This document shows, in pieces, positions 1-40,226 of a stretch of DNA of 64,000 nucleotides. The position numbers and the translations under genes are program-made. This DNA comes from Steromphala cineraria (lineage: Eukaryota > Mollusca > Gastropoda > Trochida > Trochidae): positions 17,926,093-17,990,092 of the forward strand of contig OU744727.1 of assembly GCA_916613615.1 (NCBI GenBank). The letters are read 5' to 3'. The first letter of the stretch is position 1. Every line of letters starts with the position of its first letter. The notes under the pieces were generated by a model that made no database searches, was not told the DNA's origin, and saw nothing but the letters and a program-made list of their open reading frames with translations.

Positions 1-54
1 CCCAATCATCTGCCATCTCAATGCATTTGAAATTCTCCTTCGTGCCATTGTCAT
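1..54 (-). pseudogene. Tc1-like transposase, N-terminal fragment at window edge
   Basis: Read on the minus strand, bases 54-1 start with ATG (52-54, or 46-48) and give a peptide beginning MARRRISNALRWQMIG. This resembles the N-terminal helix-turn-helix start of Tc1-type transposases. The rest of the gene would lie left of the window. The paired sequence at 34767-34826 continues into a clearly broken Tc1-like gene (34041-34826), which supports the call. Only the N-terminal tip is visible here, so whether this copy is intact cannot be judged. Confidence 0.6.
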
Positions 55-841
55 TGAGAAGTCAAACAAGTGGTAATGAAGTCAGAACCCATCCTTAAAT
101 ACCCAATACTTTGATTGTTTGAAACTTTTGTTTGCGAAACACATGGATGATGACCATTCAGATTATGCAAAGAAGTTTCATTTTTTTATCTTGATAACAA
201 GGAACCCCTTTTCATCAAATTTTAATTCAATTAAGGGTTGCTGCTGATTCCACTCTCACAATGTATATTTCATCCCCACATCACTGTTTTCAGAGGCATG
301 TTGCCAGAAGGTTCTTTTTTATCATGATACAAATTAGGATCCATTTTCAAAATAAGTCAGTTATTAATTATGATGAAACGTCATCAGGTAAAATCATGGT
401 TGATAAAAACTTGAAAATGCAACTAGTGATATACCGACTTAGAAATATTTTGACTTCAATAAAGTCAAAATAAGAAAACAGAAACAAAATAGCAAAATCA
501 CAGGTGTGTTATTAGTCTCAATAGGAAGACTGTTGTAGCATTTGGTATACTTGATTCGACACCACCACCAAGACGCACCAGTCAATGGTACTACTCGAAT
601 TGAAAGGTTCCTCTTTTAATGACCCAATCATATTGACTCTTCCCCTACAGTTCATTAAATGGTTTGGTCTTAAAAGTCATGACTTACTTCAAAATGTCTC
701 CTTCCAGTGGGTGTTGAGGACATCACATTTTAGATACTGTATTTAAGATACTGTAATATATACTGTAGGTGCATTCAGTTTGGCTTTACTTACGAAAATT
801 TCTTACGACCTATCTATCCATGATAAATAGTGTTGACCGTA
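55..841. other. No gene seen (5' flank of Tc1-like fragment)
   Basis: AT-rich sequence shared with copy B (34827-35590). A 70-codon open frame at 261-473 (+) is not conserved: the partner region carries changes that break it, and no splice signal or domain supports it. I see nothing functional. Confidence 0.6.
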
Positions 842-845
842 TTAA

Positions 846-1348
846 AGAGACACAGAGTATGTTGATAGGATCAGATCAGATAGGATAGATGTCAAATTTT
901 GAAATCGATGTTATTACATCAAGAACCACTAACTGTTTCTGAAAATAACAGGTTAAAGGTCAATCAGTACATAAGAGATAAAATACGGCCATTCAAAGTC
1001 GGGATTTTGATCGAAAACCGGACAATGTGGCTCAAGTGGCGCGCGCAAATTCGCCAAACGAAATTTTGAAACCTTGTCATAAGCTGACAGGAAGATATAT
1101 TCGATTCGATAGTGTTTATTAGGTATTGTTACTAATAGGAAGATTAATTGGATGCATAATTTCGAATATTAAACGTATTTGAGATGTCTTCTTGATTTTC
1201 CCATAAAATCAAGCATTTTAGAGATATTATGCATAAATGGATTATATTTTCAAGTCCAGTGATGGGATATGAACTTCATTCAACATATTAGATATTTTGT
1301 AGGTTATCAAAACCAAATAAAATATTAAGAAAGATACTCTGTGTCACT
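846..1348. mobile_element. 503-bp MITE with TTAA target duplication
   Basis: The element begins AGAGACACAGAGTA and ends TACTCTGTGTCACT. These are inverted repeats with 13 of 14 bases matching. It is flanked by TTAA at 842-845 and 1349-1352. Copy B has the uninterrupted site, with one TTAA in 'gaccgtattaatgaacag' near 35591-35608. TTAA duplication is the hallmark of piggyBac-type (and some Kolobok-type) transposition. The body has no ORF, so it is non-autonomous. It either inserted after the duplication or was precisely excised from copy B. Confidence 0.88.
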
Positions 1349-1469
1349 TTAATGAACAGTTTGATGATGCATCAGCTGAGGTTTGTCACTAATTGAAGTA
1401 ATGAAATTAGATTATGAAAGCAGACACACAAAACCTGCCACACCACATTTGAACAAGTTCAAATTAGGG

Positions 1470-1791
1470 TGAGTGAGTGAGTGAGTTGGTGTTTAACGTG
1501 TTTTGAACAATATTTCAGTTATTAAACACGTGGATGTTGCCATCCAAAAGAGAGTAGATAGATCAGGGAGAAAGGGATCGAAAGGATGAGAGAAAAGACG
1601 GAAAGAAAGGCATAGTGAGAGATAGAAAAGCAGGTTTTAGAAGGACTCACGTTTGGTCTGGCTTCTACCCGTCGACCTGTCCAGCTTGGGTGACCCTACC
1701 AGGAGCATGTAAGCTCCAGCTGGCATAGCTCTCGGGGTTGTCGAAGCACACAAACCACCACACCACGTTAAGGTAATGAGTCCAGTGGTGG
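1470..1791 (-). mobile_element. 322-bp SINE-like retroposon with 11-bp target duplication
   Basis: The insertion is bounded by the direct repeat TCAAATTAGGG at 1459-1469 and 1792-1802. Copy B has only one copy of the site and no insertion (near 35698-35712). The left end carries the (GTGA)n-type run, so if this is the 3' tail the element lies on the minus strand with an (ACTC)n tail. The internal part near 1690-1770 includes a segment of a kind I recall from invertebrate retroposons (minus strand 'gctggacaggtcgacgg'). A 91-codon open frame at 1637-1912 (-) runs out of the element into flanking DNA and is not a gene. Confidence 0.8.
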
Positions 1792-2060
1792 TCAAATTAG
1801 GGAGAAGAGTCTTACAGTGGGTGTTCTTCGTAGTGTGAACAATATCACTGGCAAATGTTACGTGTCCTTCAAGTGCATTTGTAGCTTTTGAGGCTTCCTG
1901 TGTTGAAAGCACAAGGATCTCCTACCGACTCTTCAGTAACAGTGCTTCAAAATAAAAGTACTTCAAATAACTTGTTATTTTCATATTGATACCTTTCAAT
2001 TACTATGGAATGTCGAGCTGTGAACAAAATTCAAGATATTTAAAAGTATCAACAAGATTT

Positions 2061-2090
2061 GAAGGGTTCAGAAGCAAATCGACCTAAGTC
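2061..2090 (+). repeat. Left terminal inverted repeat of the 5-kb transposon
   Basis: It starts GAAGGGTTCAGAAGCAAA and ends CGACCTAAGTC. It pairs with 7020-7049 in reverse complement with one mismatch (T at 2079 against A). The terminal GACCTAAGTC is the first copy of the subterminal motif. Confidence 0.9.
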
Positions 2091-2283
2091 CCTTTTTGCA
2101 ACTTTTCAGGAGAGACGAAAAACTACTTTCTTTAAAACTATTCTGGGAAGTGTCAATGTTTTTTTATTTTGACTTTTGTTATGGTATACAATACACAATG
2201 CTTAACTTTAACGAAGTTTCAATTAGTATTTACAGAGTTATCATGGCTTAAATGATTTTCCCATTGCTGTTTTGTAGCAGAAT

Positions 2284-2344
2284 GACCTAAGTCAGGTATA
2301 TTTTTCATGGCAGAACGAATTTGAAAAGCAAAACAACCTAAGTC
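2284..2344. promoter_or_regulatory. Left subterminal GACCTAAGTC motifs
   Basis: GACCTAAGTC lies at 2284-2293 and ACCTAAGTC at 2336-2344, in addition to the copy in the terminal repeat (2081-2090). Short motifs repeated near both ends of a DNA transposon are usually transposase-binding sites; that function is inferred here. Confidence 0.6.
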
Positions 2345-3118
2345 ATTATTCTGTAAGTTCATGTAATTAAAATCACATTATTATGACAATAATGATAGCC
2401 AAACTATATTTTAACTATTGAATTGGCTTATTTTGTTATTAATGAAAGTATTGCATTTTGATTCAATATACATAACGTGTTTTGTATTGATGATATCTAA
2501 AAAATAATCCGTTTCATTGGTCACAGCATTAAGAATGATAAAACAACAACATTTTAAGTACCATCAAATTTATTCAAACTTGAAACATCCTGAATAGAAA
2601 CTACAATAAGCAAGAAATATGTCTCTAACTTCTAAATTCAAACATTAGAAAAAGAAGAAACCTATTGCAGAATATATAAACTTTTGATCCTTACTTTTAC
2701 TTGTGTCACAGAAAGAACATTGGTGACTCATATAAAAAAAAGATCTTAAAAAATAACAGGTTCTGATAACACCAACAATTAAATTTGAAAATGTGAAACT
2801 TTAACCATATGAAACAATACATCTGTAATGTCCTTTCGTAACATTTAATGTAACAGTAACTTCAATAAAGGTGAACTTGAGATTGAAAGAACGAATACAA
2901 TTCAATGTTAACCTGCTAGTGCTTCTGAATCAGTACTAGTTTTGATGATTCTCATCAGTGCATGTCAGCATGAATGTCAGAAAAAATCATTCTGATATTA
3001 CTTTACTAGGGTAAGAACAAATCAGATAAACCTCGAACAAAGTGACTGTTCGTCACAAAATGCATACAATGTCAAACTAATGCAACTGCAGTTAACCATT
3101 GTGTCATGTTTCTGTTCT

Positions 3119-5599
3119 TTAATCACTGTCATCACAGTATTCACTCTCCTCATCAGAGTTGGTGTCATGTGGAAGCATCTCAAAGAATGAGCGCTTCTCC
3201 AGATCTGGTATGTAGGGTATCTGTTTTAAGATATCTTGCCATTTGCAACGCTTCAGCTTGATTGGTGCGTTGTACTTCTCACACAGATCCATAGTGAAAG
3301 CTCCACGCTTTAGGATTGGAACTTTCTTCCAAGCTTCTGCTTTGTCAAGGGTGAACCTACACCAGACCTGATCTTCATGTTTGATTTGTCTCACTTGTCC
3401 AGTCTCCCAGTCGATCTCTTCGCTTGTGCCATAACTGAACCATCGTACCTTTGAGAAGCCAACCTTTCCTCCATTAGCATCTTTGAAAACTGTTCTGATG
3501 CTTCTGGTGCTCAGATCTCTAAAATCCTTGAAGTCTGACATTTGCATTTCCTCAACTTTGAAGGCACTTGGGTAAACCCTTGCTTTCTCAATTACTTCCT
3601 TTAGGTCTGATGGTGTAACGATGCTTTCAACCTTTGTTCTTTGCTGGATGATGCCAAAATCGCGATCATTGGCCAGACGTGTGTGGCCTCTAAGTAGTAT
3701 CTTGTGGTTGATACTTTCAAACTTACCATAGTAAATTTGACTTTGAAATAAAGACACCATATCATGATTCCTATTCTGTCCCCCACATCAATCTGAATAG
3801 ACAATGCAGGCTTTCGCTCCCGATTGTCTATTCTGAAGAACCTTCTTAAGGCATGAAGCAACTTCAGAGCCCCCTTTTTTGGCCACTGTTTCTGGATAGA
3901 TGCACATTATACCATCGCCATTTACATGGTCATGGATTCCGAAATTGAACATGTTTAATTGTCTGCTGTAGTACATTTTGTGTGGGTTAAGTTTGGGATC
4001 ATGAAATTTTGTTGATAATCAAAAGAGTACATGTCAATTGCTTCTTTTGAGCATGGGTCATTCTGGTTAAAGTTGCGCTCAACCTCCCATGAATCTTGTG
4101 CACATTTACGATCCTGTTTCATTTCATCATAGGACAGGTTTGCATGATACAAATGCTTGTCCTTCTCAGCTTGAAGCTTTTCCATCTGCTCGGCATCTTC
4201 CTCAACTGCTACTTTAGACTCCAATAGATCACAGGTACCACAGGTGTCAGTACGGGGATATCCAAAGGACAGTGAATATTCACTAAACACTGATCTGTAT
4301 GCATACTCTGTTGTAACAGGTTGACACTCCATGTTATTTTCCATGGCTTCCCAGGTATCTGGTTCGTATTCCCTGAAACACATTCTCCACATCCTCCTGA
4401 TGTTGAGATGAGCTGGCAGATACTGTTTATTAGGGTTATCTTTAGGCGAGTAATGTGATTTCACTGGGGCAAAACTTTTGATATGATCTTTAATTTTCAT
4501 GATTACCTCTTCAGGAATCTTGTTACTTGGAACGTGTCGTCCTCTTTTATCAGGCGGAGGAGACATTGGATTATCAGACCCTAGGATATGTCTTATGCGT
4601 GATCGATCCACAGCATGAACTTGAAGGAAGCATCCATAGCATATCTGGCGACGTGCTCCATCTGCCATAATAACATAATACTTGTAGGGGCAGCTTCTAT
4701 GTCTCGGAGTTTCTGCTCTCGGTTTGTGTTGCATTTTCTCTGTTGATGAATCGACCAATCCACAAAGGTACATATCTTGCTCTCTTTTGTTGCCTAATTC
4801 ATTGAAAACTACCTGGGCATGGTTACCAAGTTTTTCAAAACATTTTGCACGACAACTTCTTGATTTTAGTTTCTTTGCAGCTACTTTTTTGTTACTGGCA
4901 TTGCTATATTCCTGACCAGTGCTTCGTTTCCTTTTCTGGACAGTTCTTTTCCAGTCTGAAGGATTTGCCGTTTTTCTTCTTTTAAGAAAATCATAAACAT
5001 CATCATTTTTGTCATTAGGCACATTGTCATCTGTTGTCTCCTCACAACACACAATCTAATTTAGCTGTCGAGTCAACTGTCGCTGCTACACCGATACCAC
5101 CAGATGCCTCGGACACATCAACCTGAGCTGCAATGACGTCTGTGTTTAACATTTGATATTCAGGACGTTCTGCAGGATGTTCTTCAAGTACTTCAGTTTG
5201 ACATTCCATATGCTTGTCAACGACGAAAGAACCCATATTAAGTAGTCGAACTGATTTATTGTTATCACAGTCGTCAGTATCCTCAGACGAATGCGAATCA
5301 GGCACGAAATCAGGATCTTTAACATCTGTTGGCAATGAAACATCGTCTTCCAGATCAGATGAATTGGAGTCAGGCACAAAACTGGTTTCTTTTGGATCTG
5401 ACGGCAAAACAACATCATCATTCTGATCATCAATTGGTGAATCAGCAACATGTAAATTTGCTGCAGATTCAATTGCAAATTCAATGGACTCTTGAAGTGT
5501 CTTTTGAGTGTTGTCCAGTTCAAATACTGAGTCACTGTCACTCTCTGAATCATAATTAAACAACATTTGTAAGACATCTTCAGTTGTGAGTTTCTCCAT
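3119..5599 (-). pseudogene. Putative transposase, DUF7869-type family, broken by two frameshifts and one stop
   Basis: The product resembles the invertebrate proteins I know as DUF7869 proteins. Segment order from the ATG at 5599: an acidic Asp/Ser-rich N-terminus (about 185 codons, 5599-5042); then after a frameshift at 5042-5052, 365 codons (to 3955) with CRAKC at residues 67-71 of that segment, CPYKYY at 121, CYGC at 138, DKRGRH near 168 and DTCGTCD at 269-275; then a likely first catalytic Asp in SFDYQQNF (residue 345). A one-base frameshift follows in an A-run near 3975, then the MYYSRQL...GIHD block, then VYSD followed by an in-frame TGA (3788-3790) where the family has Asn, then CGGQN and the NDRDFG block to the stop at 3119. 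Pattern Asp...SDN...DRDFG fits an RNase H-like transposase fold, but no catalytic role is proven. Total coding span is about 830 codons. The two frameshifts and the stop mean this copy cannot make the full protein. Confidence 0.75.
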
Positions 5600-5639
5600 T
5601 TTGATTTAGAAAATCAACACTATCGATTCAATGACTCCT

Positions 5640-6350
5640 TTAATCAGTTGCACATGCTCTCTTTGGATGTGGAACAGAGTAAACCCATCTCTTCTCTGAC
5701 AGCATGCTGCGTGGAATAAATTCCATGATACAATGTCCGAAACAAACCTCTCCAACATAGTCATTGACTAAACATGACCACCCTAATGGGTCTTCTTTCG
5801 GAAATAATGAGATAAAAGCCAGACTTCTTCTTGTTGAAAGCATCTTTCGAACAGTTTTAGCTGTAACAGGTTTGGAGTTACTAATGTCCAAGTAACGAAG
5901 ATTTGGCATCCTCATAACAATTTCCAGTTGGTGATCTTCAGTTAGATCTCTAAGTCCATGTGTGAAGAGATGTGTCAAATTCACACATAAGGTCAAAGCA
6001 TTGAAAATGTATGATATGCCATCAGAGTTCCATCCAGAAACTGTCAACTCTGTCAGATTGGGAACATGACTTACATTGCCAATGACCGGGACATGCTGTA
6101 GGCTCATGATAAGTTTTCGAACATTCACGCATAATGGTATATACTTTGAAAAGTCTATATGCTGTTCATATTGTATGCGACAGTCACAGGAACGAAGGTC
6201 CAAACAAGTGAATTTTGCCCATAGAAAACGACTTACTACTATTTCATGCCACAGTTTACAGACAGCGGCAACATCCTGGACAAGAACACATGGGGAAATA
6301 TACTGTAAAATTTCTATTTGAAGTTCCGTTGGCAAGTTGAAGCCATTCAT
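5640..6350 (-). CDS. F-box and leucine-rich-repeat protein carried by the transposon
   Basis: An intact 236-residue frame from the ATG at 6348-6350 to TAA at 5640-5642. Residues about 6-47 fit an F-box (LPTELQIEILQYI ... VCKLWHEIV ... LWAKF), the Skp1-binding module of SCF ubiquitin ligases. The rest has irregular leucine-rich repeats (PNLTELTVSG, VNLTHLFTHGL, PNLRYLDISN), as in FBXL substrate adaptors, with no membrane segment. The open frame extends to 6398, but a strong 3' splice site on the minus strand (pyrimidine run then TTGCAG, AG at 6374-6375) starts an exon at 6373. A matching GTAAGT donor at 6711-6716 gives a 343-bp intron, so the upstream exon is probably 5' UTR. The gene ends 40 bp before the ATG of the DUF7869-type gene, on the same strand and inside the same terminal repeats. 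It has no frameshift or stop, unlike its neighbour. Confidence 0.75.
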   Translation of the reverse strand: MNGFNLPTELQIEILQYISPCVLVQDVAAVCKLWHEIVVSRFLWAKFTCLDLRSCDCRIQYEQHIDFSKYIPLCVNVRKLIMSLQHVPVIGNVSHVPNLTELTVSGWNSDGISYIFNALTLCVNLTHLFTHGLRDLTEDHQLEIVMRMPNLRYLDISNSKPVTAKTVRKMLSTRRSLAFISLFPKEDPLGWSCLVNDYVGEVCFGHCIMEFIPRSMLSEKRWVYSVPHPKRACATD

Positions 6351-6596
6351 TGGAATTTTGAGCGTGGAGATCCCTGCAACAAGGAAAAAAAGATTCACTA
6401 TTTCAACAATTTTCCCATGAAAATTACTACTACTGTTGCATATTTATTTACAGATTATGATAGTGGAAGTCAAAGATGCGATTTAAAATATCAAAAGGTT
6501 GATGGAAAGGAAATCAACTTGACTTTTTGACTTTTATAGCTTTTACTTTATGTTTTATCCTTTTCTTTTGTGCTTCAATAGTTTTGTGCCAAAACA

Positions 6597-7029
6597 ACCT
6601 AAGTCCTGAAACCAACTTTTAGCACATTTTAAGTAGTAATTAACGTTGTTTTTCAAACAAAATCACAAAAAAATATACCCTATCACTTAATTTTCAATAT
6701 CTGTCTCAAAACTTACCAATTTGATTCCGATTTTAAAAGTTGTTACCAGTTTCCTCAGACACTGCTTCCAGAGTGACATGTGGTCATGACACCTATTTTC
6801 ACCTCCTTTCAGAAGAGTTTGGAGGCAAAAAGACCTAAGTCTGGCCCATTCAGAGACAGAACGAACTAAGTCTGACTTAGGTCATTTGTGCATAAATATG
6901 CCAATTTCAATGAGCTGTAACTTCGTCAAAAATTATTGTATCAACATGACAGTTCACCAAAAGGTAGATCTTTTCATAATGATTAACGTGATATAATTAT
7001 GTCAAAACGACCTAAGTGTGACTTAGGTC
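6597..7029. promoter_or_regulatory. Right subterminal GACCTAAGTC motif cluster
   Basis: ACCTAAGTC 6597-6605, GACCTAAGTC 6832-6841, GAACTAAGTC 6863-6872, GACTTAGGTC 6874-6883, GACCTAAGTG 7009-7018 and GACTTAGGTC 7020-7029. Both orientations occur, and two pairs are arranged head to head. The right end is upstream of both minus-strand genes, so these sites could also tie transcription to transposase binding. Confidence 0.6.
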
Positions 7030-7049
7030 GTTTTGCTTCTGAACCCTTC
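7020..7049 (-). repeat. Right terminal inverted repeat of the 5-kb transposon
   Basis: Reverse complement of 2061-2090 with one mismatch. Just inside it, GACCTAAGTG (7009-7018) faces GACTTAGGTC (7020-7029) across one base, forming a perfect short palindrome (CGACCTAAGT / ACTTAGGTCG). This could be a paired transposase-binding site. Confidence 0.9.
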
Positions 7050-7214
7050 ATTTACAAAGACAAATATGTTAACCAAAAAACTAATGGTTGCATGGTTAAG
7101 TTTCATTCATTTAAGATGTCTTTTTTTAAAATACCAAGTTTTGTTAACATTCATGGGATCCAGTAGACCAATGAATATTAATATAATTTTCTTGTTTGCC
7201 CTCTTTTGCTAGAA

Positions 7215-7290
7215 TTATAGTAAACCTAAGCGCCTTGAGCAACCACGAGTGGTTGGATATGCACGCTATATAAAAAAAAAATATCCATCC
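7215..7290 (+). mobile_element. LINE 3'-tail fragment
   Basis: A block absent from copy B contains 'aagcgccttgagcaacc' and 'gcacgctatataaaa', followed by an A-run and (ATCC)n-like repeats. This is the usual 3' end of CR1/L2-type LINEs, like the GCGCTATATAAA tail at 25590. It is too short for coding sequence and the target duplication is not clear. Confidence 0.6.
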
Positions 7291-7704
7291 ATATATACCG
7301 GTATGTAATCAAAGGTACAGTCCATTAGTTACAAATTGTAGGGTCTTCTGTTTTCAAAATCCCCGTTGTTTATCAATTTTTAGAACTATCGGAAAACCGT
7401 ACTTTATCCTCAATGTCTAAAGGTTTTTAGATGGTTTAACACAGCCTTAGGAAATATTCGAAATATATTCTTTAGACGTTTACCTCAACAATATGGAATA
7501 ACTGTCAAAATAATTGAGATCAAATCAATGTTTTCACAATGTCATATGAACTACCTAGAATAATTATTTCAAGCAAAACAAATGTCAAATTAAATTGTAA
7601 GTACATGTATTGAATATTGTAACAGGTTCGTCTTTTGATAGTTTCCTATTCAGGGAAGATTACAGAGAAGAATCTAATTGCAATCAACTTAGCTGAACTA
7701 TCGT

Positions 7705-8068
7705 TCAAATACAAACAAATTCCAAACAAACAAATACCATGAACATTTTATCATGGTTCACGAATGAGCTATTGATGAACTTCTTTGGTCTGTAAAAATA
7801 AATTCTCAATGATTGAAAAGGTGATAATCTTGTGTATGTTGTTCTGAGACCCCATGTGTTCTTTTCTTGGTCCAACAAGAATTTAATGATGAAATACATT
7901 TATCCCGATTGTCATAAGTCTACCAGTGCATACAATTTTAAATCACTCAAATATTTAAATACAGTTTTTTATGTCGTTCAAAAGGAGTGTTATACGTTCC
8001 TTTACGGTAGAATATTAACCATTCTGATTACAAATAGGACAACATACAGTGACCTTTCTGTGTTGAAC
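7705..8068. other. No gene supported
   Basis: Short open frames on both strands (7705-7899 minus, 7832-8110 plus) are present. Their partners near 36.5-37.0 kb differ by indels that shift the frames, so neither looks constrained. The plus-strand frame runs into the dispersed module at 8069. Confidence 0.5.
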
Positions 8069-8206
8069 AGATACACATGTTTACATTCAACCACAAAATC
8101 AAGTAATTAGCAGACAGCAGGTGCTCGTGTTACAATTAAGGCAGATAATTGCCGTTGTTGGTGTCAATGTGCTTAGTTAACTAGATCAGAGTGGAGATTC
8201 ACTAGG
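8069..8206 (+). repeat. Dispersed ~140-bp module, unit 1
   Basis: It starts GATACACATGTTTACATT, contains GACAGCAGGTG (8113) and GGCAGATAATTG, and ends near 'agttaactagatcagagtgg'. Unit 2 (12068-12207) has the same order of blocks. Copy B holds it at about 36927-37065. It combines a CAGGTG E-box and a GATA motif. In copy B an open frame crosses it (Cys-rich peptide NCRCWCQC), so exon and regulatory readings both remain possible. Confidence 0.6.
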
Positions 8207-8815
8207 TTCCGAGTTTGGCTTCAAGCTTTCTCTCGTTAAACTGTTTATTGTTCTCCATTCTAGACAACAGTAATGGTTCTATGATGCTTCTTCAATGTCC
8301 ATCCTTTCAAGAGGTCAATGCTGTACAGTTTGAATAGATTTTGTTGATAAACTGCTTTATATAGTTTTGTAAGAAACAGCACATCTTCTTGTGTAACTAT
8401 ATCGACTTGCAATCAGTGAAATCAATTATCTTATGAAACCTTAGATACAATGGGAGTTTGTATTTGAATATAAGCTAATGATTGTGTTATGAGCAGAAAA
8501 TAGTTACTGAAACTCTTCTGTGACATTCAATTTGCATGTATAGTTTTGGATGATAATAAACTGTTATGTATTACATCTAGAAGTATGATATATGACAAAC
8601 ACCCATCACTTTAACTAACACCCATTAACTTGTCGAAAAAGGGATACTAAAGAAAACAAAAATGCCTACGCCTTCCATTCACAATATTCTACAAATAAAA
8701 AACAATCATGAATGAGTTATGGCTGGTTTTCATGTTTTCGACTAAAATGTATTCTTAATCCGCTAATTTTGTTGGTAATTTAGTTTTGCAATCTAATATG
8801 AAAGGTCCTAGAGTC

Positions 8816-9544
8816 GTTGTTTTATTTTAATACTTGATTATGCACTGTAATGTCTTGTTTACAATATAAGTATAAACGTATTAAAGAAATTAAATTTATT
8901 ACCTATTTAAGTTGCTGATTAGTGGCTGTAAACCTTAAGCAAATTCTGGATGTATATAGTGTTTTAATATATGTCGGATATATTTAAATAACTGACATCA
9001 TTTCATTTGTACCTTTTGATCTGCTGAATAATACATACATGTAATTTGAGGCTTTGAGCAAATCTTCTGTACCTGAAAATTGTTGATGTATGTTAAATTC
9101 TTAATCAAAAATAGCTTTAGGATCAAATATACTTAAGACACATTTTTGCCTCAGGCTAAACAAAACGTTTGACGTAAATTGTAATAAAGCATGCCCATAA
9201 GGATTCAAATGAGTTTCTTTTGTAGCTTTTATCATGTTTCAACTTCAAAATAACAAAATTTAGGAATTCACACAATTTTATTTATTTAGTTCCTAACATT
9301 GATGAATTGTTTGTGCCTAGAAAGTCACGAACAATCAAAGAAGTACATGATATATATTCTTCGGGATCAGCCTCATTTTCATTATTTTTGTAAATTTTAA
9401 CTGACATTTCACCAAAAAGACAATTCAAAACAAATGAAGTCATTTATTTTAAGAACATTTTATAACAACTTGTCAGTGGATGTGTTCACGACATATAATT
9501 GATCTATGGATGACGTTTATGGTAATGCCTCTGTTATCATGTTA
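8816..9544. other. 729-bp block present only in copy A
   Basis: Copy B joins the flanks directly at 37639/37640. There are no inverted ends and no target duplication, so a deletion in copy B is more likely than an insertion in copy A. No ORF or structure was recognised inside. Confidence 0.6.
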
Positions 9545-10280
9545 CATCTGAACTTTGTAGGTACAAGTAAGTTGTATATCTAGGAACAAACAGTTGTGAT
9601 CACCGGTTAAGAGCTTTAAAGCAATACGTTCTGTCATTATATTTGTTACAAATTTATCAATATCTTGAGTAATGTTATAGAGCTGGTGAAATGTGCTGTC
9701 AGCAATATTATTTCAAACTGACCATTTAACTATTAATTCTTAAAATCCATTCAGTTTTTCATTTTGGGGTTGTATGTAAGGCATCCTTTACCCCTAAATT
9801 TTATTTCAAACCGAGCTTGCGCATTTGAAACAAAAATATAACTGTGTATTGAAAGTTATTCAACTTTAATTCTCAACTTTGATAAAACTATAAAGTTTCT
9901 AGGTATTGAAGTTATGATAGAGATTACAATGTTATGATATATAATTTATGTGCAATCACTCAACTTCTTTACAAAATGTGTTAATGCTAGTATCCAAATA
10001 AACAGTGAAACTGATCTGTATATATTGTAATAACAATTTTTGGGAAGAGTAAAGCACATAAAGCAACATATTTATCAACAACTAAATTGTTTATAAAATG
10101 TGCTCCCTTCAGCAATACCCATATGTTCACATATAGGAAAGAACTTGTCAGACACCCGCTCGTCTATTACTGAGATTTGTTTAAGAATTAAACAAAGCTA
10201 TCAAAAAAGTTCTCAAAGTTAAGAAGAGATTGTTTTCCAAATATTTACTCCCTTAGACTATACAAGAACTAAAGTACAGA
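9545..10280. other. No gene seen
   Basis: AT-rich non-coding sequence closely matched by copy B (from 37640). I found no conserved reading frame, splice pair or repeat boundary. Confidence 0.5.
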
Positions 10281-10365
10281 GACGGCAGGTGTGCCAGCTG
10301 CAGTTGGGGAGGATAATTAAAGATGTGGGTGTCAGTAGATAGGCATTTAGCGATGCTGTAGGTTG
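10281..10365 (+). repeat. Dispersed module, diverged third unit
   Basis: It contains ACGGCAGGTGTGCCAGC, then GGATAATTAA and a GTGTCAGTAG stretch in the same order as units 1 and 2, but shorter and more diverged. The partner in copy B is at about 38378-38462. Confidence 0.4.
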
Positions 10366-12067
10366 CTAATGTATATGCTGTTTTTAGAATCCTTTCAAAT
10401 CATCTCTCCTCGGATTCTCAAACGAATCTGTGCACATGATGACAGTGCTTTTAGTTGTTTTAAATGCGGAAATTTTTTCGAGAAATACAGTGACAATAGA
10501 ATTCTATTTATAGTGCTGTACAAGGACATATCAAACTACTGAATGGCTTGTCAAAAAGGGATTTGTACGTTGAGAAACGAATGTTGAGGGTCTGTATTCC
10601 ATGAGAATTTTATGAAATATATAATATAATATAAATATATAATTAAAGCATGCATTACTTAAAATTTAGCAATACTTCCAAATGAGAAATACACAATCCA
10701 GATATTGGTGGACCACAGGTGGTTTGGTTCTAATTAGTAAGAACATTCAAAGTAGTGGGTGTTTTGTAAAGTGGCAACAACATCACCATTCAGAATCACG
10801 AAGCTTTAAGTGAATTCTTATCTTGATTAACAACACTTTAGGGATCATCTTACGACTCTTCAATAACAGTTCTTAAGAATAAAAGTTCTAACAAATAACT
10901 ACAAATGTAGCGTTTTTCGAAACGTTTTATTTACCGTTCATTGCCTAGTCTTCTCAAGGCACTTCGATTGAAAATCAACATCTATTTTGAGGTCCGTGCT
11001 TATTTCTTCGCACTCTCTTTTAAATGAAAACAGACAGAGGGTATGTATGCTTCTATTGTATAACAAACATGAAATGTTCAAAATTTCAACAATAACAAAC
11101 TCAAACGTAGCACATACAATGTAGTAGTGAAACATTATAAAAATCTATAAATTGTAACCAAAAAGGAAGATGTTTAAGTTTTTATGATCCTGTGCATGTT
11201 TATGAAGAAGGTCTGAACTAAGTAAAAAACGTAATTTCTTTGGTTTTCCTTTCTTTAATCAACGAGACCAAATATACTCTGTTCACATTCTTCTAAAATA
11301 TCTGTTAAAACACAAATCTTAACATGTCAAGACCAATATTATTAACTTAATGTAGTATAATCGACCAGATAACAAATTGACAATGATACACTTATGATAT
11401 CTAAAAAAACAAACTTATTGAATCTTTAGGAATCATGTTTATTTGAAAAAGATTTAGTTTGTCGATGTCTGAGGTAATGAAATAAGTGGACATTCTTTAT
11501 TATTACCAATTTTAAATAGTTTAGCTGAAAAAAAAACCTTAATTAATATACCGGTAATTATAGTTACTTGTAGTGAGATGAGATTGAGGTACAGTTCAAA
11601 TAATTTTCTAATTGATTATATTATTGAATATCACAGTTTCAAACTGTACATTTTCAAGTGGTGGGTTCATAAATGCAAACAATTTTTTTGTTTTCTAATC
11701 GACCAATACAAAAATACATCCTTTTAAAAGACACATACATTTTGTTTTGTATCTCAAAACAAATTTTTATAGAGATCAATATATAAATTGGAAAACATCT
11801 TGATAAACACAATGAAAGCAACCTGAAATTTGATTATATTACTGTATCTTTACATGAAAATCAGAACACGTCAGAAAATGTCCAAATTATCCACATATAG
11901 TTTCGGATCACAACTGGATTTAACTTGTCAACATGATTTGAAGCCCCCTGGTGTTTTTTTTTGTAGGATTTCAAAACCAATTTTTCAAGAAATGAGATCA
12001 TATAATTCCTCATTTTTACAAAACAAAATATTTATACTCCCCCCCCCCCCCACCCCCAAAAAAAGGC
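10365..12067. other. No gene seen; copy-specific 80-90-bp deletion in copy B
   Basis: Non-coding AT-rich sequence. About 83 bp after 10900 ('acaaatgtagcgttt...') is missing from copy B near 38993, with short microhomology ('cta') at the junction. The open frame at 10938-11135 (-) overlaps that variable block and is not supported. A C-run at about 12042-12057 is length-variable between copies. Confidence 0.5.
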
Positions 12068-12207
12068 GACACACGTGTCTACATTATTAAAAATAATTAG
12101 GAACAAATTGATAGACAGCAGGTGTTCGTCTTGCAATGAGGGAAGATAATTGCATCTGTAACTATCAACGTTGTTAGTTAACTAGATCGCAGTGAATATT
12201 CATTCGA
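12068..12207 (+). repeat. Dispersed ~140-bp module, unit 2
   Basis: GACACACGTGTCTACATT, GACAGCAGGTG (12114), GGAAGATAATTGC and AGTTAACTAGATCGCAGTG match unit 1 block by block. The copy B partner lies at about 40084-40226. Confidence 0.6.
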
Positions 12208-14315
12208 TTTTTTGGGATTTATTTGAAATCTTAATATGCAACACCTTTAGGATCACAAGATAAGTATTTATCATCGATTTTTAAACTGAAGTCAACACCT
12301 GTAAATTGTTGATTCAGAATAACTGCTTCACTTATTATAAGCTTTCTTTAGCGAATGCAGCATTACTTACATTTCGTTTATGAACTTGAAATAAAAAAAG
12401 TAAGTTGCAATTAAAACAAGTTCTGTACCTCCAAATAATATTACTGAGATAAACAAACGTTGTTTGACATGATTACTATAAATGATTTCGACAAACAATA
12501 ATTGATACGATACCTTTACTACTCTTTATTTATAATTGTTGATCATGGCAAAACACATGTTGAACATAAAACTTAGATCATTATGATAATAAGACTAAAA
12601 TGTTTATTATTGATATCATCAATTTCATAGAGTTACGATCTTACTTGTAAGTCTCCTTATCGGCTAATGATTGCAACGGCAGCTACAATACACCGGGGCA
12701 GTGTGTAAAGTCATTTGTCACAGCTGCATATCTGCTGGCCACCTTCTGACCGTTGATGAGTGGAAACCCAAAATTAAACGTTTCTGTGGATATAAATACT
12801 ATCGATATCGATCTGTTCCCTGTTCAATAAAGGCTTATGATATGTTGGTACAAAAATATCTACTGAAAGGCTGCTTTGATTTACATTGTACATGAAATTA
12901 CGTATAATAGAGACGTGTACACAAAGAGAAAACTGTCTAGGTTTGTCACATATATTCATCATAAAAATAAGAAAGAGGACGTCATGATGAAATAATATTC
13001 TAAATTGATATATATTTAATGATTCAACAGATTACATATGAATAAAAAGTATAGGGAGACAGCCATGTTTTTTTTGGTATCCTCTGAACCTCATTGTGTT
13101 GCAATGAAAATATGGCATGTTGCTCTTTAAAGCGTTGTAGTTTTGTAAACAATAATTACGTTTAGTTTGATTTCTTATAATATGTTATTGCTTCCATACC
13201 ATGCTTAGCAAAATGTTGTATTAGTTTCTTTCAAAACGTTAGTAGTCTATTATCTGTAAACCAAAATACTGAAATTTAACCAAAACATATCGTATGTGAA
13301 GTGCATATTAAGATCAGGCTTCCAGCAGATCCTTTTTTCTGAAGATTGGATTAAATTATTAAAATCTTAATAGGGATCAAATTGTTAAGAAATAATTCCC
13401 TTTGGGGGAATAAAACAGCTAACAAAGAAAACAAAAGGAATCATATTACCATGGTATGTTAAAAACTTTGTTCAACAAATCAAGGATCAAATACATTTAA
13501 GAAAAAGTTTCACCTTAGGCCAAACAAAAACATTCGATTGAAAATTGAAAAATCATAAATGCATGCCCATGAGGATAAAATCTTCCCATGAGAGATCATA
13601 TGGATTTGAAATGTTTCAAAATATTAGCTTTAGCTTATTTTATCAAATATGAAATCGTACAACTGATTTGTAACGATCTACCAAAAACAATTAACAAGAA
13701 AATAATTAATAAAAATACACTTTGGTATTCTACATTGGCATTTTAAGTATAAAGTCAAAATCTACAATCACATTCAGACGGTTATAACCAAAGGTAGAAC
13801 TGAAACAACTAGCCCCAAGATAAACAATTGGACTTATTTGTTGTTATAACCACGTCACTGGTTCATCTAAGTGTTGGATAAACTTTTCAATGTGCACTGA
13901 AATTGTAGTGCTTTGGCCTTAACAGTAACGCCAGTGGGCACTGATATTCCACTGCTTTGGTATTAACGGGTTTACTGGTACATTTAATTATTATTGCTGC
14001 TGTATTCGGTATAACCACATGATACATCAAGTAGGTTTAACAGTCACAAAGCAACACTTGAGTTGCCACTGGTAAAATAAATCAAATACATAGATTACAA
14101 AGCCTTGGGACTGACTCTGTAATCTTCTGTACAATGTAGCTTATTCCTTCGTAAGATTTGTAAGTATGACCATTATTAAAACAGTGAATAGGTCACCCGT
14201 GAATAATGTTCAAGACTTTTCTAACACTAAATTTTCTTAAACATTTATGCTTTTCTTTAAAACATGAAGTTTAGTGGCACGTCTTTTTTCAAGCCACATT
14301 CCTCTCAATACAAAG
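12207..14315. other. No gene supported
   Basis: It includes an open frame at 12671-12895 (+) present in both copies. Most differences between copies change the amino acid and the copy B frame shifts before the end, so constraint is not shown. The rest is AT-rich sequence without splice pairs that I could recognise. Confidence 0.45.
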
Positions 14316-34040: not shown

Positions 34041-34826
34041 AAAACATCAGTAACATGTGGTGCCACTACGCGTGAATATCTGCAGCTACACTTCTTGGCT
34101 TACAATTAGCCAGGTTCTTCAATTGTTCCATCGGTATCCGCTGCAACTCATTGTGAAGAGCGGCCACCAGTACCCTCAGGTATTTTTACAGGTTGATCCC
34201 TTCTTTATATCCAATGATCCAAAATGTCCCACACATGCTCGATTGGGTTCAATCAGGTAACATTGCTGGCCATGGAATTCATGTTACGCCATTATTTTCA
34301 AGAAGATGGTTTAAAGGAAGTGAACGATGGGACTCGGCATTGACGTCGATGATCAAGGATCTTGTGGCAAGTCTGTGGTCATCGTATTGATCAATAATTA
34401 CAGGCCCCAGAACCTCCTGAATGTAGCGAACACCTGTGAGTGAACCCTCCATATGCGGGCTGGGCCATCAACAGCATACAGGAGGAAACGACTTTCGTCG
34501 GTCCAGTGCTCTCTCCTCCATGATCTCAGGTTCCACCTCGGCCTGTCCACAAACCCTAACCTAAGCTCATGTCTATGTTGATTAGTGAGCATTGGACGCC
34601 AGGTGACCCTTCTGGCCCTAAATCCGGCAGCTTTGAGGCGATTTCTCAGAGTTTTGGTTGCTCAATCGGCGATGAGGTAACCATACCCGTTTCAGATGGG
34701 TGCTTAAAGCTAACGACAGGCTTTAACATATCGTAACAGAGCACTATCCTCCTGGGGCGATGAAGCCCAATCATCTGCCATATCAATGCATTTGAAATTC
34801 TCCTTGTGCCATTGTCTTTGAGAAGT
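34041..34826 (-). pseudogene. Tc1-like transposase pseudogene
   Basis: Minus-strand fragments in N-to-C order: TRRISNALIWQMIG (start of the DNA-binding region), then after stops LRNRLKAAGFRARRVTWRP, LTNQHRHELRLGFV and HWTDESRFLLYAVDG (first catalytic Asp in TDESRF) up to about 34400, RYIQEVLGPVIIDQYDDH, and PDLNPIEHVWD (third catalytic block) near 34230. The QDNARPH block carrying the second Asp is not recognisable. There are several frameshifts and stops. It spans most of a Tc1 gene (usual length ~340 codons) with internal loss, and its right part is duplicated at window bases 1-54. Confidence 0.82.
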
Positions 34827-36926
34827 GATACAAGTGGTAAGTCAGAACCCATCCTTAAATACACAATACTTGTGATTGTTTGAAACTTTTGTTTGTAAAA
34901 CACATGGATGATGACCATTCAGATTATGCAAAGAAGTTATATTTTTTCATGTTGATAACATGGAACCCGTTTTCATGTAATTTTAATTCAATTAAGGGTT
35001 GCTGCTGATTCCACTATCACAATGTATATTTCACCGCCACATCAGTCTGTTTTCAGAGTCATGCTGCCAGAAGGTTCTTTTTTATTATGATAAAATTTAG
35101 GATCCATTTTCAAAATAAGTCGATTATTCATTATGATGAAACGTCATCAGGTAAAATCAATGTTGATAAAAACTTGAAAATGCAACTACTGCTATACCGA
35201 CTTAGAAATATTTTGACTTCAATAAAGTCAATATAAGAAAACAGAAACAATAATTAGCAAAATCACAGGTGTGTAATTAGTCTCATTAGGAAGACTGTTG
35301 TAGCATTTGGTTCGACACTTGATTCTACAACACCACCAAGATGAACCAGTCTGCAATGGTTCTACTCGATTTGAAGTCTTCCTCTTTTAATGACCCAATC
35401 ATCGACTCCTCCCCTACAGTTCCTTGAATGGTTTGGTCTAAAAAGTCATGACTTATTTCAAATGTCTCCTTCCAGTGGGTGTTGAGGACATCACATTTTA
35501 GCTACTAAACATTCTGTAGGTGCATTCAGTTTGGCTTTACTTAGGGAAATTTCTTACGACCTATCTATCCATGATAAATAGTGTTGACCGTATTAATGAA
35601 CAGTTTGATGATGCATCAGCTGAGGTTTGTCACTAATTGAAGTAATGAAATCATATTATAAAAGCAGACACAAAAAACCTGCCACACCACATTTGAACAA
35701 GTTCAAAATAGGGAGAAGAGTATTGCAGTAGGTGTTCTGAGTAGTGTGAACAATATCACTGGCACATGTTACGTGCCCTTCAAGTGCATTGGTAGCTTTT
35801 AAGGCTTCCTGTGTTGAAAGCACATTAAGGATCTCCTATCGACTCTTCACTAACAGTGCTTCAAAGTAAAAGTACTTTAAATAACTTGTTATTTTCGAAT
35901 TGATACCTTTCAGTTACTATGGAATGTCGAGCTGTCTGAACAAAATTCAAGATATTTAAGAGTATCAACAAGAGTAACAAAACAAATATGTTAACTGATA
36001 AAAATAATAGTTTTTATGCATTTTACATGTCTTTTTAAAAGATATCAAGTGTCGTTTTCATTCATGAAATCCAGTAGAGCAACCTATATTATTTTCCTGT
36101 TTGCCCTCTCTTGCTAGAATTTAAATATACTTGTATGTAATCAAAGGTACAATCCATTACTTGACAAATCGTTGGGTCTTCTGTTTAAAAAAAACCCCGT
36201 TTTTAACACCTTTTAGAACTATCAGATAAGCTTGTTTTATCCTCAATGTTTAAAGGCTTTGCGATGGTTAAACACAACCTTTGGAAATATTAAGTTCTTA
36301 CCATAGATGTTTACCTCAACATTACGGAAAAACTGTCAAAATAATTGAGATGTCAAATCTTTGTATTCACAATATCATATGACCGACCTAGAATAATTAT
36401 TTCAACCAAAACAAATGTCAAATTAAATTGTAAATGTATCAGGTTCGTCTTTCTCCTATTTAGAGAAGATTGCAGAGAAAAATGTGATTGCAATCAGCTT
36501 AACTGAACTATCGTTCAAATAAAACATTACAGGTGATAATTATAAACAAACAAATACCATGAACATTTTATCATGGTTCACAAAATAGCACATTACTACG
36601 TATATCAATAGCCCCATGAGCTATTGATGAAATTCTTTGGTCTGTAATAAGTAAATTCTCATTGATTCAAAAGGTGATTATATTCTGTATGTTGTTTTGA
36701 GACTCCACATGTTATTTTCTTGGTCCAACAGGAGTTTAATAATAAAATACATTTATCCTGATTGTCATGAGTCTACCAGTGTATCACATTTTAAATCCCT
36801 CAAATACCCAAATACAGTTTTTATTTTATGTCGTTCAAAGGGAGTGTTATACTTTCCTACACGGTAGATTATTAACCATTCTGATTACAATTCGGACAAC
36901 ATACAGTGACCTTTCTGTGTTGAACA
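34827..36926. other. Copy B left part, including empty sites of copy A insertions
   Basis: Non-coding. It holds the uninterrupted target sites for the 503-bp MITE (near 35595), the 322-bp retroposon (near 35705), the 5-kb transposon (near 35973) and the LINE tail (near 36120). An open frame at 36767-37033 (+) crosses dispersed-module unit 1 but is broken in copy A. Confidence 0.7.
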
Positions 36927-37065
36927 GATACACATGTTTACATTTAACCACAAGATCAAGTAATAAACAGACAGCAGGTGCTCGTGTTACAATTAAGGCA
37001 GATAATTGCCGTTGTTGGTGTCAATGTGCTTAGTTAACTAGATCAGTGTAGAGATTCACTAGGTT
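36927..37065 (+). repeat. Dispersed module unit 1 (copy B)
   Basis: Counterpart of 8069-8206, with the ACAGCAGGTGCTCGTG and GGCAGATAATTGCC blocks unchanged. Confidence 0.6.
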
Positions 37066-40000
37066 CCGAGTTTGGCTTCAAGCTTTCTCTCGTTCAACTG
37101 TTTATTGTTCTCCATTATAGACAATAGTAAGGGCTCTATGATGCTTCCTAAATGTCCATCATTACAAGAGGTCAATGGTGTGCCGTTTGAAATGATTGTT
37201 TTGATAAACTTTATTATTTTGAGGTTTTGAAAGAAACGACAGAATTTTTTATGTAACTAAATCGACTTGAATCATTGAAATCATGAAACCTTAGATACAA
37301 TCGGAGTTTGTATTTGAATATAAGCTAATGATTGTGTTATGAGCAGAACAAAGTTACTGAAACTCTTCTGTGACATTCAATTTGCATGTATAGTTTTGGA
37401 TGATAATAAACTGTTATGTATTACATCTAGAAGTATGATATATGACAAAAACCCATCACTTGAACTAACACCCATTAACTTGTCGAATAAGAGATACTAA
37501 AGAAAACAAAAATGCCATTCACAATATTCTACAAATAAAAACCAATCATGATGAGTAGTGTCTGTTTTTCATGTATTCTTAATCCGCTAATTTTGTTGTT
37601 AATTTAGTTTTGCAATCTAATATGAAAGGTCCTATAGTCATCTGAACTTTGTAGGTACATGTAAGTTGTACATCTAGGAACAAACAGTTGTGATCACCGG
37701 TTAAGAGCTTTAAAGCAATATGTTCTGTTATTACATCTGTTACAAGTTTATCAATATCTAGAGTAATGTTATAGAGCTGGTGAAATGTGCTGTCAGCATT
37801 ATTGTTTCAAACTGACCATTTAACTATTAATTCTTAAAATCCATTCTGTTTTTCATTTTGGGGTTGTATGTAAGGCATCCTTTACCCCTAAATTTTATTT
37901 CAAACCGAGCTTGCGCATTTGAAAGAAAATATAACTGTGTATTGAAAGTTATTCAACTTTAATTCTCAACTTTGATAAAACTATAAAGTTTCTAGGTATT
38001 GAAGTTATGATAGAGATTACAATGTTATGATATATAATTTATGTGCAATCACACAACTTCTTTACAAAACGTATTAATGCTAGTATCCAAATAAACAGTG
38101 AAACTGATCTGTATATATTGTAATAACAACTTTTGGAAAGAGTAAAGCACTTAAAGTAACATATTTATCAACAACTAAATTGTTTATAAAATGTGCTCCC
38201 TTCAGCAATACCCATATGTTCACATAATTATAGGAAAGAACTTATCAGACACCCGCTCGTCTATTACTGACACTTGTTTAAGAATTAAACAAAGCTATCA
38301 AAAAAGTTCTCAAAGTTAAGAAGAGATTGTTTTCAAAATATTTAGTTCCTTAGACTATACAGGAACTAAAGTACAGAAACGGCAGGTGTGCCAGCAGCAG
38401 TTGGGGAGGATAATTAAAGCTGTGGGTGTCAGTAGCTGGGCATTTAGCGATGCTGTAGGTTGCTAATGTATATGCTGTTTTTAGAATCCTTTCAAATCAT
38501 CTCTCCTGGGATTCTCAAACGAATCTGTGCACATGATGACAGTGCTTTTAGGTGTTTTAAATGCGGACCTTTTCTAGAAATACAATGACAATATAATTCT
38601 ATTTAAAGTGCTATACAAGGACATATCATACAACTGAATGGCTTGTCAAAAAGGGATTTGTACATTTAGAAACGAATGTTCAGGGTCTGTATTCCATGAG
38701 AATTTTATGAAATATATAATATAATATAAATATATAATTAAAGCATGCATTATTTAAAATTTAGCATTACTTCCAAATGAGAAATACACAATCCAGATAT
38801 TGGTGGACCACAGGTGGTTTGGTTCTAATTAGTAAGAACATTCAAAGTAGTTGGTGTTTTGTAAAGTGGCAACAACATCACCATTCAGAATCACGAAGCT
38901 TTAAGTGAATTCTTATCTTGATTAACAACACTTTAGGGATCATCTTACGACTCTTCAATAACAGTTCTTTAGAATAAAAGTTCTAACAAATAACTATTTT
39001 GAGGTCCGTGCTTATTTCTTCGCACTCTCTTTTAAATGAAAACAGACAGAGGGTATGTATGCTTCTATTGTATAACAAACATGAAATGTTCAAAATTTCA
39101 ACAAAAACAAACTCAAACGTAGCACATACAATGTAGTAGTGAAACATTACACAAATCTATAAATTGTAACCAAAAAGGAAGCTGTTTAAGTTTTTATGAT
39201 CCTGTGCATGTTTATGAAGAAGGTCTGAACTAAGTCAAAAACGAAATTTATTGGTTTTCCTTTCTTTACTCAACGAGACCAAATATACTCTGTTCACATT
39301 CTTCTAAAATATCTGTTAAAACACAAATCTTAACATATCAAGACCAATATTATTAACTTAATGTAGTATAATCGACCAGATAACAAATGGACAATGATAC
39401 ACTTATGATATTTAAAAAAAACCCTTATTGAATCATTAGGAATCATGTTTATTTGAAAAAGATTTAGTTTGTCGATGTCTGAGGTAATGAAATAAGTGGA
39501 CATTATTTATTATTACCAATTTTAAATAGTTTTGCTGAAAAAAAAACCTCAATTAATATACCGGTAATTATAGTTACTTGTAGTGAGATGAGATGAGGTA
39601 CAGTTCAAATAATTTTCTAATTGATTATATTATTGAATATCACAGTTTCAAACTGTACATTTTCAAGTGGTGGGTTCATAAATGCAAACAATTTTTTGTT
39701 TTCTAATCGACCAATACAAAAAAGACATACTTTTACAAGTCACATACATTTTGTTTTGTATCTCACAACAAATTTTTATAGAGATCAATATATAAATTGG
39801 AAAACATCTTGATAAACACAATGAAAGCAACCTGAAATTTGATTATATAACTGTATCTTTACATGAAAATCAGAACACGTCAGAAAATGTCCAAATTATC
39901 CACATATAGTTTCGGATCACAACTGGATTTAACTTGTCAACATGATTTGAAGCCCACTGGCTTAACAGGTTTTTTTGAAGGATTTCAAAACCAATTTTTC

Positions 40001-40083
40001 AAGAAAAGAGATCATATAATTCCTTATTTTTACAAAACAAAATATTTTTACTCCCCCCCCCCCCCCCCCCAAAAAAAAAAAGG
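37066..40083. other. No gene seen (copy B)
   Basis: Counterpart of 8207-12067 with two deletions relative to copy A (junctions at 37639/37640 and about 38993). The diverged third module lies at about 38378-38462. Frames at 39621-39812, 39863-40117 (+) and 39962-40153 (-) include or flank a C-run and are not supported. Confidence 0.5.
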
Positions 40084-40226
40084 CGACACACGTGTCTACA
40101 TTATTAAACATAATTAGGAACAAATTGATAGACAGCAGGTGTTCGTCTTGCAATGAGGGAAGATAATTGCATCTGTAACTATCAACGTTGTTAGTTAACT
40201 AGATCACAGTGAAGATTCATTCGATT
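40084..40226 (+). repeat. Dispersed module unit 2 (copy B)
   Basis: Counterpart of 12068-12207, preceded by a longer C-run and A-run (about 40052-40080). Confidence 0.6.

Follow-up and report, generated by a model that had tools for sequence, protein, structure and literature searches.

Sola transposons encode a DDD transposase with an RNase H-like fold and generate 4-bp target-site duplications, and we know of no F-box gene among them. Harbinger elements encode a transposase plus a Myb-like protein and generate 3-bp duplications, and an F-box gene would be an extra component there. Outside transposons, VirF of Agrobacterium and P0 of poleroviruses are F-box proteins with which parasites redirect the Skp1–Cul1–F-box (SCF) ubiquitin ligase of the host. 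In the portions of the published work drawn on here and below, Sola elements are reported from bivalves, with a mean length of 5,445 bp for Sola1 (PMC10294476), and Kolobok and piggyBac elements have TTAA duplications (PMC9587614). According to the same kind of partial source, Ginger1 elements have CCGG or CCGT duplications, TGTNR termini, and a transposase with a Gypsy-type integrase and a C-terminal accessory domain that is OTU or Ulp1, never both, with PHD in one listed family; their describers proposed that transposition widely involves the ubiquitin pathway (PMC2836005). Host F-box genes with captured transposable element (TE) domains are also described, F-box::HTH in Caenorhabditis and F-box::CxC7/KDZ in zebrafish (PMC12062965, in the main text of which the terms Harbinger and LRR are absent). 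We analyzed a 64,000-nucleotide stretch of the genome of the trochid gastropod Steromphala cineraria (GenBank assembly GCA_916613615.1, contig OU744727.1, forward-strand positions 17,926,093 to 17,990,092; hereafter, the window), in which a DNA transposon carries an F-box/leucine-rich repeat (LRR) gene beside its presumed transposase gene. As judged from sequence matches, the same pairing recurs in about nine families of elements with a DUF7869-type transposase (in one of them with the F-box gene downstream) and in a PIF/Harbinger lineage of the same genome.

The element occupies 4,989 bp of the window, from 2061 to 7049. Its inverted ends (2061–2090 and 7020–7049) are identical at 29 of 30 bp, and ATTT flanks it on both sides. 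When the two flanks are joined, they align continuously with a duplicated block in which the insert is absent at about 35,973–35,976; this empty site has diverged, since its four bases are AGTA and not ATTT. The source of the empty site is a large duplication inside the window (1–14000 against 34766–42045, about 73–96% identity by piece). The window has 10 sites that match GACCTAAGTC with no more than one mismatch, whereas shuffling predicts 1.84 and none of 100 shuffles yields as many as 10; 9 of the 10 fall within the element, close to its ends. An earlier note on this DNA, made from the letters alone, had proposed that the block moved as a unit and that such motifs cluster at its ends, and these data bear out both proposals. 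Its presumed transposase and F-box/LRR genes almost certainly lie, by their reading frames, on one strand with the F-box gene first and the two frames almost touching. The features of the element are the following.

2057–2060, no strand: left target-site duplication, ATTT (read from the sequence)
2061–2090, plus strand: left terminal inverted repeat (TIR), 30 bp, matching the right TIR at 29 of 30 positions
2081–2090: additional GACCTAAGTC-like site within the left TIR (site search, at most one mismatch)
2284–2344, plus strand: left subterminal GACCTAAGTC-like sites, 2284–2293 and 2335–2344 (same search)
3122–5599, minus strand: DUF7869 transposase gene in three broken frames (about 5599–5045, 5073–3976, and 4006–3122)
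5600–5639, minus strand: 40 nt separating the stop codon of the F-box ORF from the ATG of the transposase
5640–6350, minus strand: F-box/LRR open reading frame (ORF), 236 amino acids from the first ATG after the predicted 3′ splice site
6374–6395, minus strand: pyrimidine-rich tract plus CAG, a possible 3′ splice site ahead of the F-box exon (read from the sequence)
6596–7018, plus strand: right subterminal GACCTAAGTC-like sites, including two head-to-head pairs (6863–6883 and 7009–7029)
7020–7049, minus strand: right TIR, 30 bp, matched to the left TIR
7050–7053, no strand: right target-site duplication, ATTT (read from the sequence)
about 35973–35976, no strand: empty counterpart site in the duplicated block, AGTA (alignment of the joined flanks)

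A search of the 1.27-Gb genome identified other copies of this family. One (L007) has 98.3% identity over its full length and an AAAT duplication; another (L008) has 96.6% identity, is also full length, and has an ATTT duplication; a third (L006) has 97.9% identity and an ATAT duplication and is internally deleted at element positions of about 4172–4944. A decayed further copy lies at C32:44.56 Mb, and two short matches cover an end only, one at C6:65.63 Mb (72% over about 148 bp, with the rest of the element absent from the 9.5 kb read) and one at C43:8.51 Mb (86% over 58 bp). The TIRs of L006, L007, and L008 agree at 28–29 of 30 positions, similar subterminal sites are present at the matching positions of L007 and L008, and the 4-bp duplications of all four examined copies, the window's included, fit AWWT. 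A head-to-head GACCTAAGT / ACTTAGGTC pair is present twice, at the right end only (6857–6887 and 7003–7033); such pairs are a possible asymmetric array for transposase binding.

For a second family, both ends were read in two copies (L023 on C3 and L028 on C42). Its ends start with GAAGGGTT, as do those of the window element, with one mismatch in the C42 copy; AATT flanks both copies, and the F-box and transposase genes both lie between the ends. Comparison of L023 with five relatives showed 99.3–99.7% identity over the 3,861 bp compared, which indicates a recent spread of this family. Both ORFs of L023 are open, the F-box ORF with 295 codons (from stop to stop) and the transposase ORF with 594, and they share 14 nt. 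Across the two families, TIRs plus a target-site duplication were found in all 6 of the 6 unlinked copies. The window block is best explained as a cut-and-paste member of a large and diverse group of DUF7869 DNA transposons; in the two families read, the ends of this group appear as 5′-GAAGGGTT with a 4-bp A/T duplication fitting AWWT.

The transposase gene is a single ORF of about 831 amino acids in L007 and L006. The unbroken L007 ORF scores 35.9 bits with PF25273 (DUF7869; cut-off 26), which places it in that family, and its domain matches are DUF7869 and, at chance level, Chromo; the window fragment alone scores 21.2 bits, under the cut-off. Because its transposase is split into three frames, the window copy is not autonomous as it stands. 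The window F-box ORF stays open and belongs to the F-box-like family PF12937 (38.3 bits compared with a cut-off of 24.3), and among Protein Data Bank sequences this protein matches the LRR of ZYG11B (E = 0.00047) and, over F-box plus LRR, SKP2 (E = 0.0024). On these matches, one gene is an F-box/LRR gene and the other is a presumed transposase gene of the DUF7869 type. The statement in the earlier note that the element encodes both proteins stands for the F-box/LRR protein and for the family of the transposase, but not for an intact transposase in the window copy. Acidic residues invariant in 11 aligned transposases include D532, D608, and D650, and also D355, D456, and E584; we chose the first three among them as a candidate catalytic triad. 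Among proteins whose source is named, the nearest come from Patella caerulea (49% identity, full length) and Haliotis rufescens (46% over 59%). A predicted model of the transposase (pLDDT 44) gave no Foldseek match at E ≤ 0.001.

To place this pairing in the genome, 68 matches from a search with the transposase piece and 35 matches to PF25273 were merged into 69 DUF7869 loci, and these were compared with 92 F-box matches (PF12937, from 150 scored out of 278 candidates). An F-box match lies within 5 kb at 20 of the 69 loci, compared with 0.055 expected by chance under uniform placement. In every one of these 20, the F-box match shares the strand of the transposase and lies within 1.2 kb of the transposase, upstream in 18 and downstream in 2. 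Copies within one family are not independent, so we sorted the 20 loci, by our own grouping, into about nine families: the window family (3 loci), the L023 group (6), the L029 group (2), the L062 group (2), L063/L064 (2), L015/L067 (2), and single loci on C2, at C32:44.15 Mb, and on C43. An accidental neighbor of the transposase is ruled out by this frequency, single strand, and tight spacing. A host F-box gene merely lying beside an insertion is ruled out as well, as the gene lies within the TIRs of unlinked copies and of a second family. As a control, none of 150 Harbinger loci matching PF13359 (the best 150 of 1200 candidates, a list that leaves out the F-box-bearing Harbinger lineage described below) has an F-box match within 5 kb, so within that list F-box matches do not lie near just any transposase. 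In a second control, five of five hand-picked host-type F-box loci lack a significant transposase match in the stretch read, which was mainly downstream (best E = 0.079).

These results also bear on whether the F-box gene belongs to the element. F-box sequence is present in 5 of 5 window-family copies that have transposase sequence, although in L006 most of the F-box motif and adjoining sequence is deleted, the F-box frame of L008 is interrupted, and the F-box of the C32 copy has decayed; the L007 F-box frame is open, but its final part is frame-shifted relative to the window copy. The earlier note had called for further copies with the same ends and for both genes in full-length ones. Matching TIRs and 4-bp duplications were found in all four copies examined, and the F-box gene is retained in all as sequence but not always as an intact gene. 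Neither of two outcomes that the earlier note had held against its proposal, an absence of other copies or a one-off capture, applies, since further copies hold the F-box and the pairing recurs at 20 of the 69 loci.

The family in which the F-box/LRR ORF lies downstream of the transposase (L015, L017, and L067, at C39:56.84 Mb and C41:19.64 Mb) has repeats at about 196-bp spacing on its upstream side. Among the loci without an F-box match, three were picked for their long ORFs (L059, L060, and L061, at C35:23.16 Mb, C5:13.25 Mb, and C39:4.23 Mb, with DUF7869 ORFs of 973–1189 codons). In all three, an OTU-type domain lies N-terminal to the transposase in the same ORF, with scores of 28.7 bits in L059, 27.1 in L061, and 22.9 in L060, the last just under the cut-off of 23.3. 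OTU and F-box matches occur together at none of the 69 DUF7869 loci. In a further group (L018, L019, and L020, at C1:57.04 Mb and C37:30.98 Mb), a small PHD-like ORF overlaps the transposase start, in the place that the F-box takes elsewhere; the two C1 loci of this group are identical over 2,861 bp and lie 4.1 kb apart.

The closest relatives of the window F-box protein outside its own family lie beside transposases of another superfamily. The protein matches 28 genome sites at E ≤ 0.001. Eleven are its own family, nine were read and found beside a Harbinger transposase, six more have near-equal score and ORF length to those nine (the flanks of one, at C41:41.09 Mb, match), and two remain (C5:110002 and C5:17420294). 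Outside the window family, 9 of 10 fetched loci (L039–L042, L046–L049, and L069) pair an F-box/LRR ORF with a Harbinger transposase directly downstream of it. The exception is L044 (C5:110002), where no transposase was found in the 3.2 kb read; the decayed F-box piece at C5:110002–114236, 40% identical to the window's, is about 3 kb from same-strand DUF7869 matches and is not among the 20 loci. With tblastn, all nine of these loci show an L047-type transposase on the same strand as the F-box ORF; it is broken or partial in L039, L041, L042, and L046. DDE_Tnp_4 scores 109.5 bits on L047 compared with a cut-off of 24.8, which identifies the L047 group as PIF/Harbinger by its transposase; of the two ends of the Harbinger element, one boundary was reached. 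The distance from F-box stop to transposase ATG in these loci is 3 to 11 nt (six measured). L039–L041 have an extra short upstream ORF that, by eye, resembles the Myb/MADF-type DNA-binding protein of Harbinger.

Homology outside the F-box motif was assessed with the first 55 residues removed. A profile of the Harbinger F-box proteins without the motif scores 44.7 bits on the window protein (E = 6.6e-13 in a set of 1000), compared with at most 21.9 bits on six host F-box/LRR gene pieces; on the other DUF7869 F-box proteins, its E values range from 4.7e-5 to 0.056. The window and Harbinger proteins have a common C-terminal motif, CFGH-I----PR--L---R--YS, and an unrooted tree of 12 F-box proteins joins the window protein, on a long branch, to the four Harbinger ones with support of 95/97. 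Passage between superfamilies would explain this kinship, as would capture of one ancestral gene by both; the tree gives no direction. Between the DUF7869 families themselves, a motif-less profile of L062, L064, and L065 scores 60.4 bits on L029, 18.4 on L023, 16.2 on L067, and 2.6 on the window protein, with 18.2 on host piece L070, and the F-box proteins of most pairs of families have 12–26% identity.

Ten junctions between F-box and transposase ORFs were measured and range from a 14-nt overlap (−14) to a 40-nt gap (+40); the value for L007 results from its frame shift. Such proximity of two reading frames in an animal element suggests one shared transcript, and the layout suggests that both ORFs could be read from it via reinitiation or alternative splicing. 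Most F-box ORFs at these junctions are preceded by a pyrimidine-rich stretch and AG, a plausible 3′ splice site by eye, which makes an upstream exon likely. Between the diverged Harbinger F-boxes of L039 and L047, the ratio of non-synonymous to synonymous substitution rates (dN/dS) is 0.18.

Based on these results, the F-box looks like a recurring accessory part of these transposons and not an accident. The reading we favor, with a probability of roughly 0.58, is that the F-box/LRR gene encodes a recurrent, transposon-borne SCF adaptor that is co-expressed with the transposase, has been shared at least once between superfamilies, and is probably directed at the host. That the F-box is a maintained functional module is likely, and an SCF adaptor is the somewhat more probable function; for a host factor as its target, the odds are a little short of even. 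The protein would act as a substrate receptor of an SCF ubiquitin ligase, made from the transposase's own transcript. Its F-box would bind host Skp1/Cul1, and the LRR and C-terminal part would deliver to the proteasome a host protein that restrains transposition (one acting in silencing, repair, or quality control). We favor such a target over the transposase for two reasons: the F-box proteins of the window element and of Harbinger elements are related although the transposases they accompany are not, and in sister DUF7869 elements an OTU deubiquitinase-like domain takes the place of the F-box. A fuller form of this proposal, which we put forward tentatively, is a portable counter-defense or licensing module in which SCF receptors from the shared transcript, exchanged at least once between DUF7869 and PIF/Harbinger elements, destroy a host factor restricting transposition, the OTU fusion being the route of the sister elements.

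Several observations weigh against this reading. No window-family copy read clearly has an intact pair of genes, and the F-box may be dispensable, because L006 has lost most of the F-box motif and yet retains TIRs, a duplication of its own, and an open transposase frame. At 49 of the 69 DUF7869 loci there is no F-box match, many of these being short matches; OTU matches are at DUF7869 loci in 4 of 34 cases genome-wide and, with L060, at 5 of the 69 loci; and the PHD-like ORF of L018 scores 20.1 bits, under its cut-off of 23.9. Constraint is not evident in recent F-box pairs, which offer few changes to judge by: dN/dS is 2.31 for L040–L041 (9 changes) and 1.07 for L063–L064 (15 changes), and the window and L007 F-boxes differ by 3 non-synonymous and 0 synonymous changes. 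The structure prediction is too weak to confirm either fold. Finally, several DUF7869 F-box proteins link to each other no better than to host F-box/LRR pieces. With their mutual links at the host background, the DUF7869 families may have recruited F-box genes separately; a single origin of all transposon F-box genes was set aside on this control, and independent entry of such genes at the same position appears just as likely as one origin. The control also slightly lowered our odds for the module and adaptor readings.

Some of these observations are those expected if the F-box gene were a passenger, with F-box exons repeatedly captured from a large host family and without a role in transposition. 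F-box/LRR genes are common in animals and gene capture by transposons is known, and both the loss of most of the motif in L006 and the host-level similarity among several DUF7869 F-boxes fit separate captures. The gene is nevertheless always on the transposase strand, upstream at 18 of the 20 loci, joined at −14 to +40 nt, and present in two superfamilies, and the dN/dS of 0.18 between diverged Harbinger F-boxes also speaks for use, as would repeated separate capture into the same place; we regard a passenger as improbable. Less improbable, although still unlikely, is that the F-box/LRR protein targets its own transposase, limiting its level or stripping it from the ends after strand transfer for repair, as ClpX removes MuA from ends after strand transfer. 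The near-touching frames imply co-production, and in most DUF7869 families the F-box protein is the family's own and strongly diverged, with the low identities given above, as a partner fitted to its transposase would be; yet related F-box proteins serve DUF7869 and DDE_Tnp_4 transposases, which would be unexpected without retargeting. Least probable of the three is a scaffold that only binds Skp1 or a nuclear partner and degrades no substrate. F-box proteins with non-SCF roles exist, and the sequence data here demonstrate no substrate degradation, but an LRR region of the substrate-binding type follows the F-box, and OTU in sister elements points at ubiquitin itself.

A further alternative concerns the name of the element and is compatible with the SCF adaptor that we favor. 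The chance is about even that the element belongs to an already named superfamily, with Sola as the candidate, in which the accessory gene was overlooked. The 4-bp duplications in all six copies (ATTT, ATTT, AAAT, ATAT, AATT, and AATT) and the invariant D532, D608, and D650, a triad of our choice among other invariant acids, would fit the general description of Sola.

Provided that the F-box genes are functional, DNA transposons exploit both sides of the ubiquitin system, and the LRR region offers a bait for animal host proteins that restrain transposition. Because about a fifth of the F-box matches listed (20 of 92, from 150 scored out of 278 candidates) adjoin DUF7869 elements, counts of F-box gene families in such genomes may be inflated by transposons. 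Our literature search found no report of a ubiquitin-ligase adaptor as a standard transposon gene, a weak negative, with the most pointed phrase search incomplete; domains that remove ubiquitin or SUMO are already on record in DNA transposons, in the portion of the Ginger1 description used here (PMC2836005).

Compared with known systems, the window element resembles VirF and P0 in that a genetic parasite supplies an F-box subunit, although those are effector or viral proteins and not transposon genes. It shares with PIF/Harbinger the closest relatives of its F-box/LRR gene, which lie directly upstream of DDE_Tnp_4 transposases in the same genome. The element differs from PIF/Harbinger in its DUF7869 transposase and 4-bp duplications, and membership is ruled out since the L007 ORF matches DUF7869 and not DDE_Tnp_4. 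Kolobok and piggyBac are excluded because TTAA, which defines their duplications (PMC9587614), is found in none of the six. The likeness to Sola lies in 4-bp duplications and would extend to a DDD-type transposase, here a candidate one. The length is similar as well, judged by the mean for Sola1 (PMC10294476). The F-box genes with captured TE domains likewise bring F-box and TE-derived sequence together; in the part of that work considered, they are host genes that took a TE domain, whereas here mobile elements carry an F-box gene (PMC12062965). With Ginger1, as described in the portion used, the DUF7869 elements have in common 4-bp duplications and accessory domains of the ubiquitin/SUMO pathway. 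They are unlike it in their AWWT duplications (6 of 6) and GAAGGGTT termini, in place of CCGG/CCGT and TGTNR, which rule out membership, and also in an OTU domain that is N-terminal and an F-box/LRR adaptor of the ligase side that is a separate ORF (PMC2836005). Within the limits of that partial source, the OTU-bearing DUF7869 elements fit the Ginger1 picture, and the F-box/LRR gene adds the ligase side to it.

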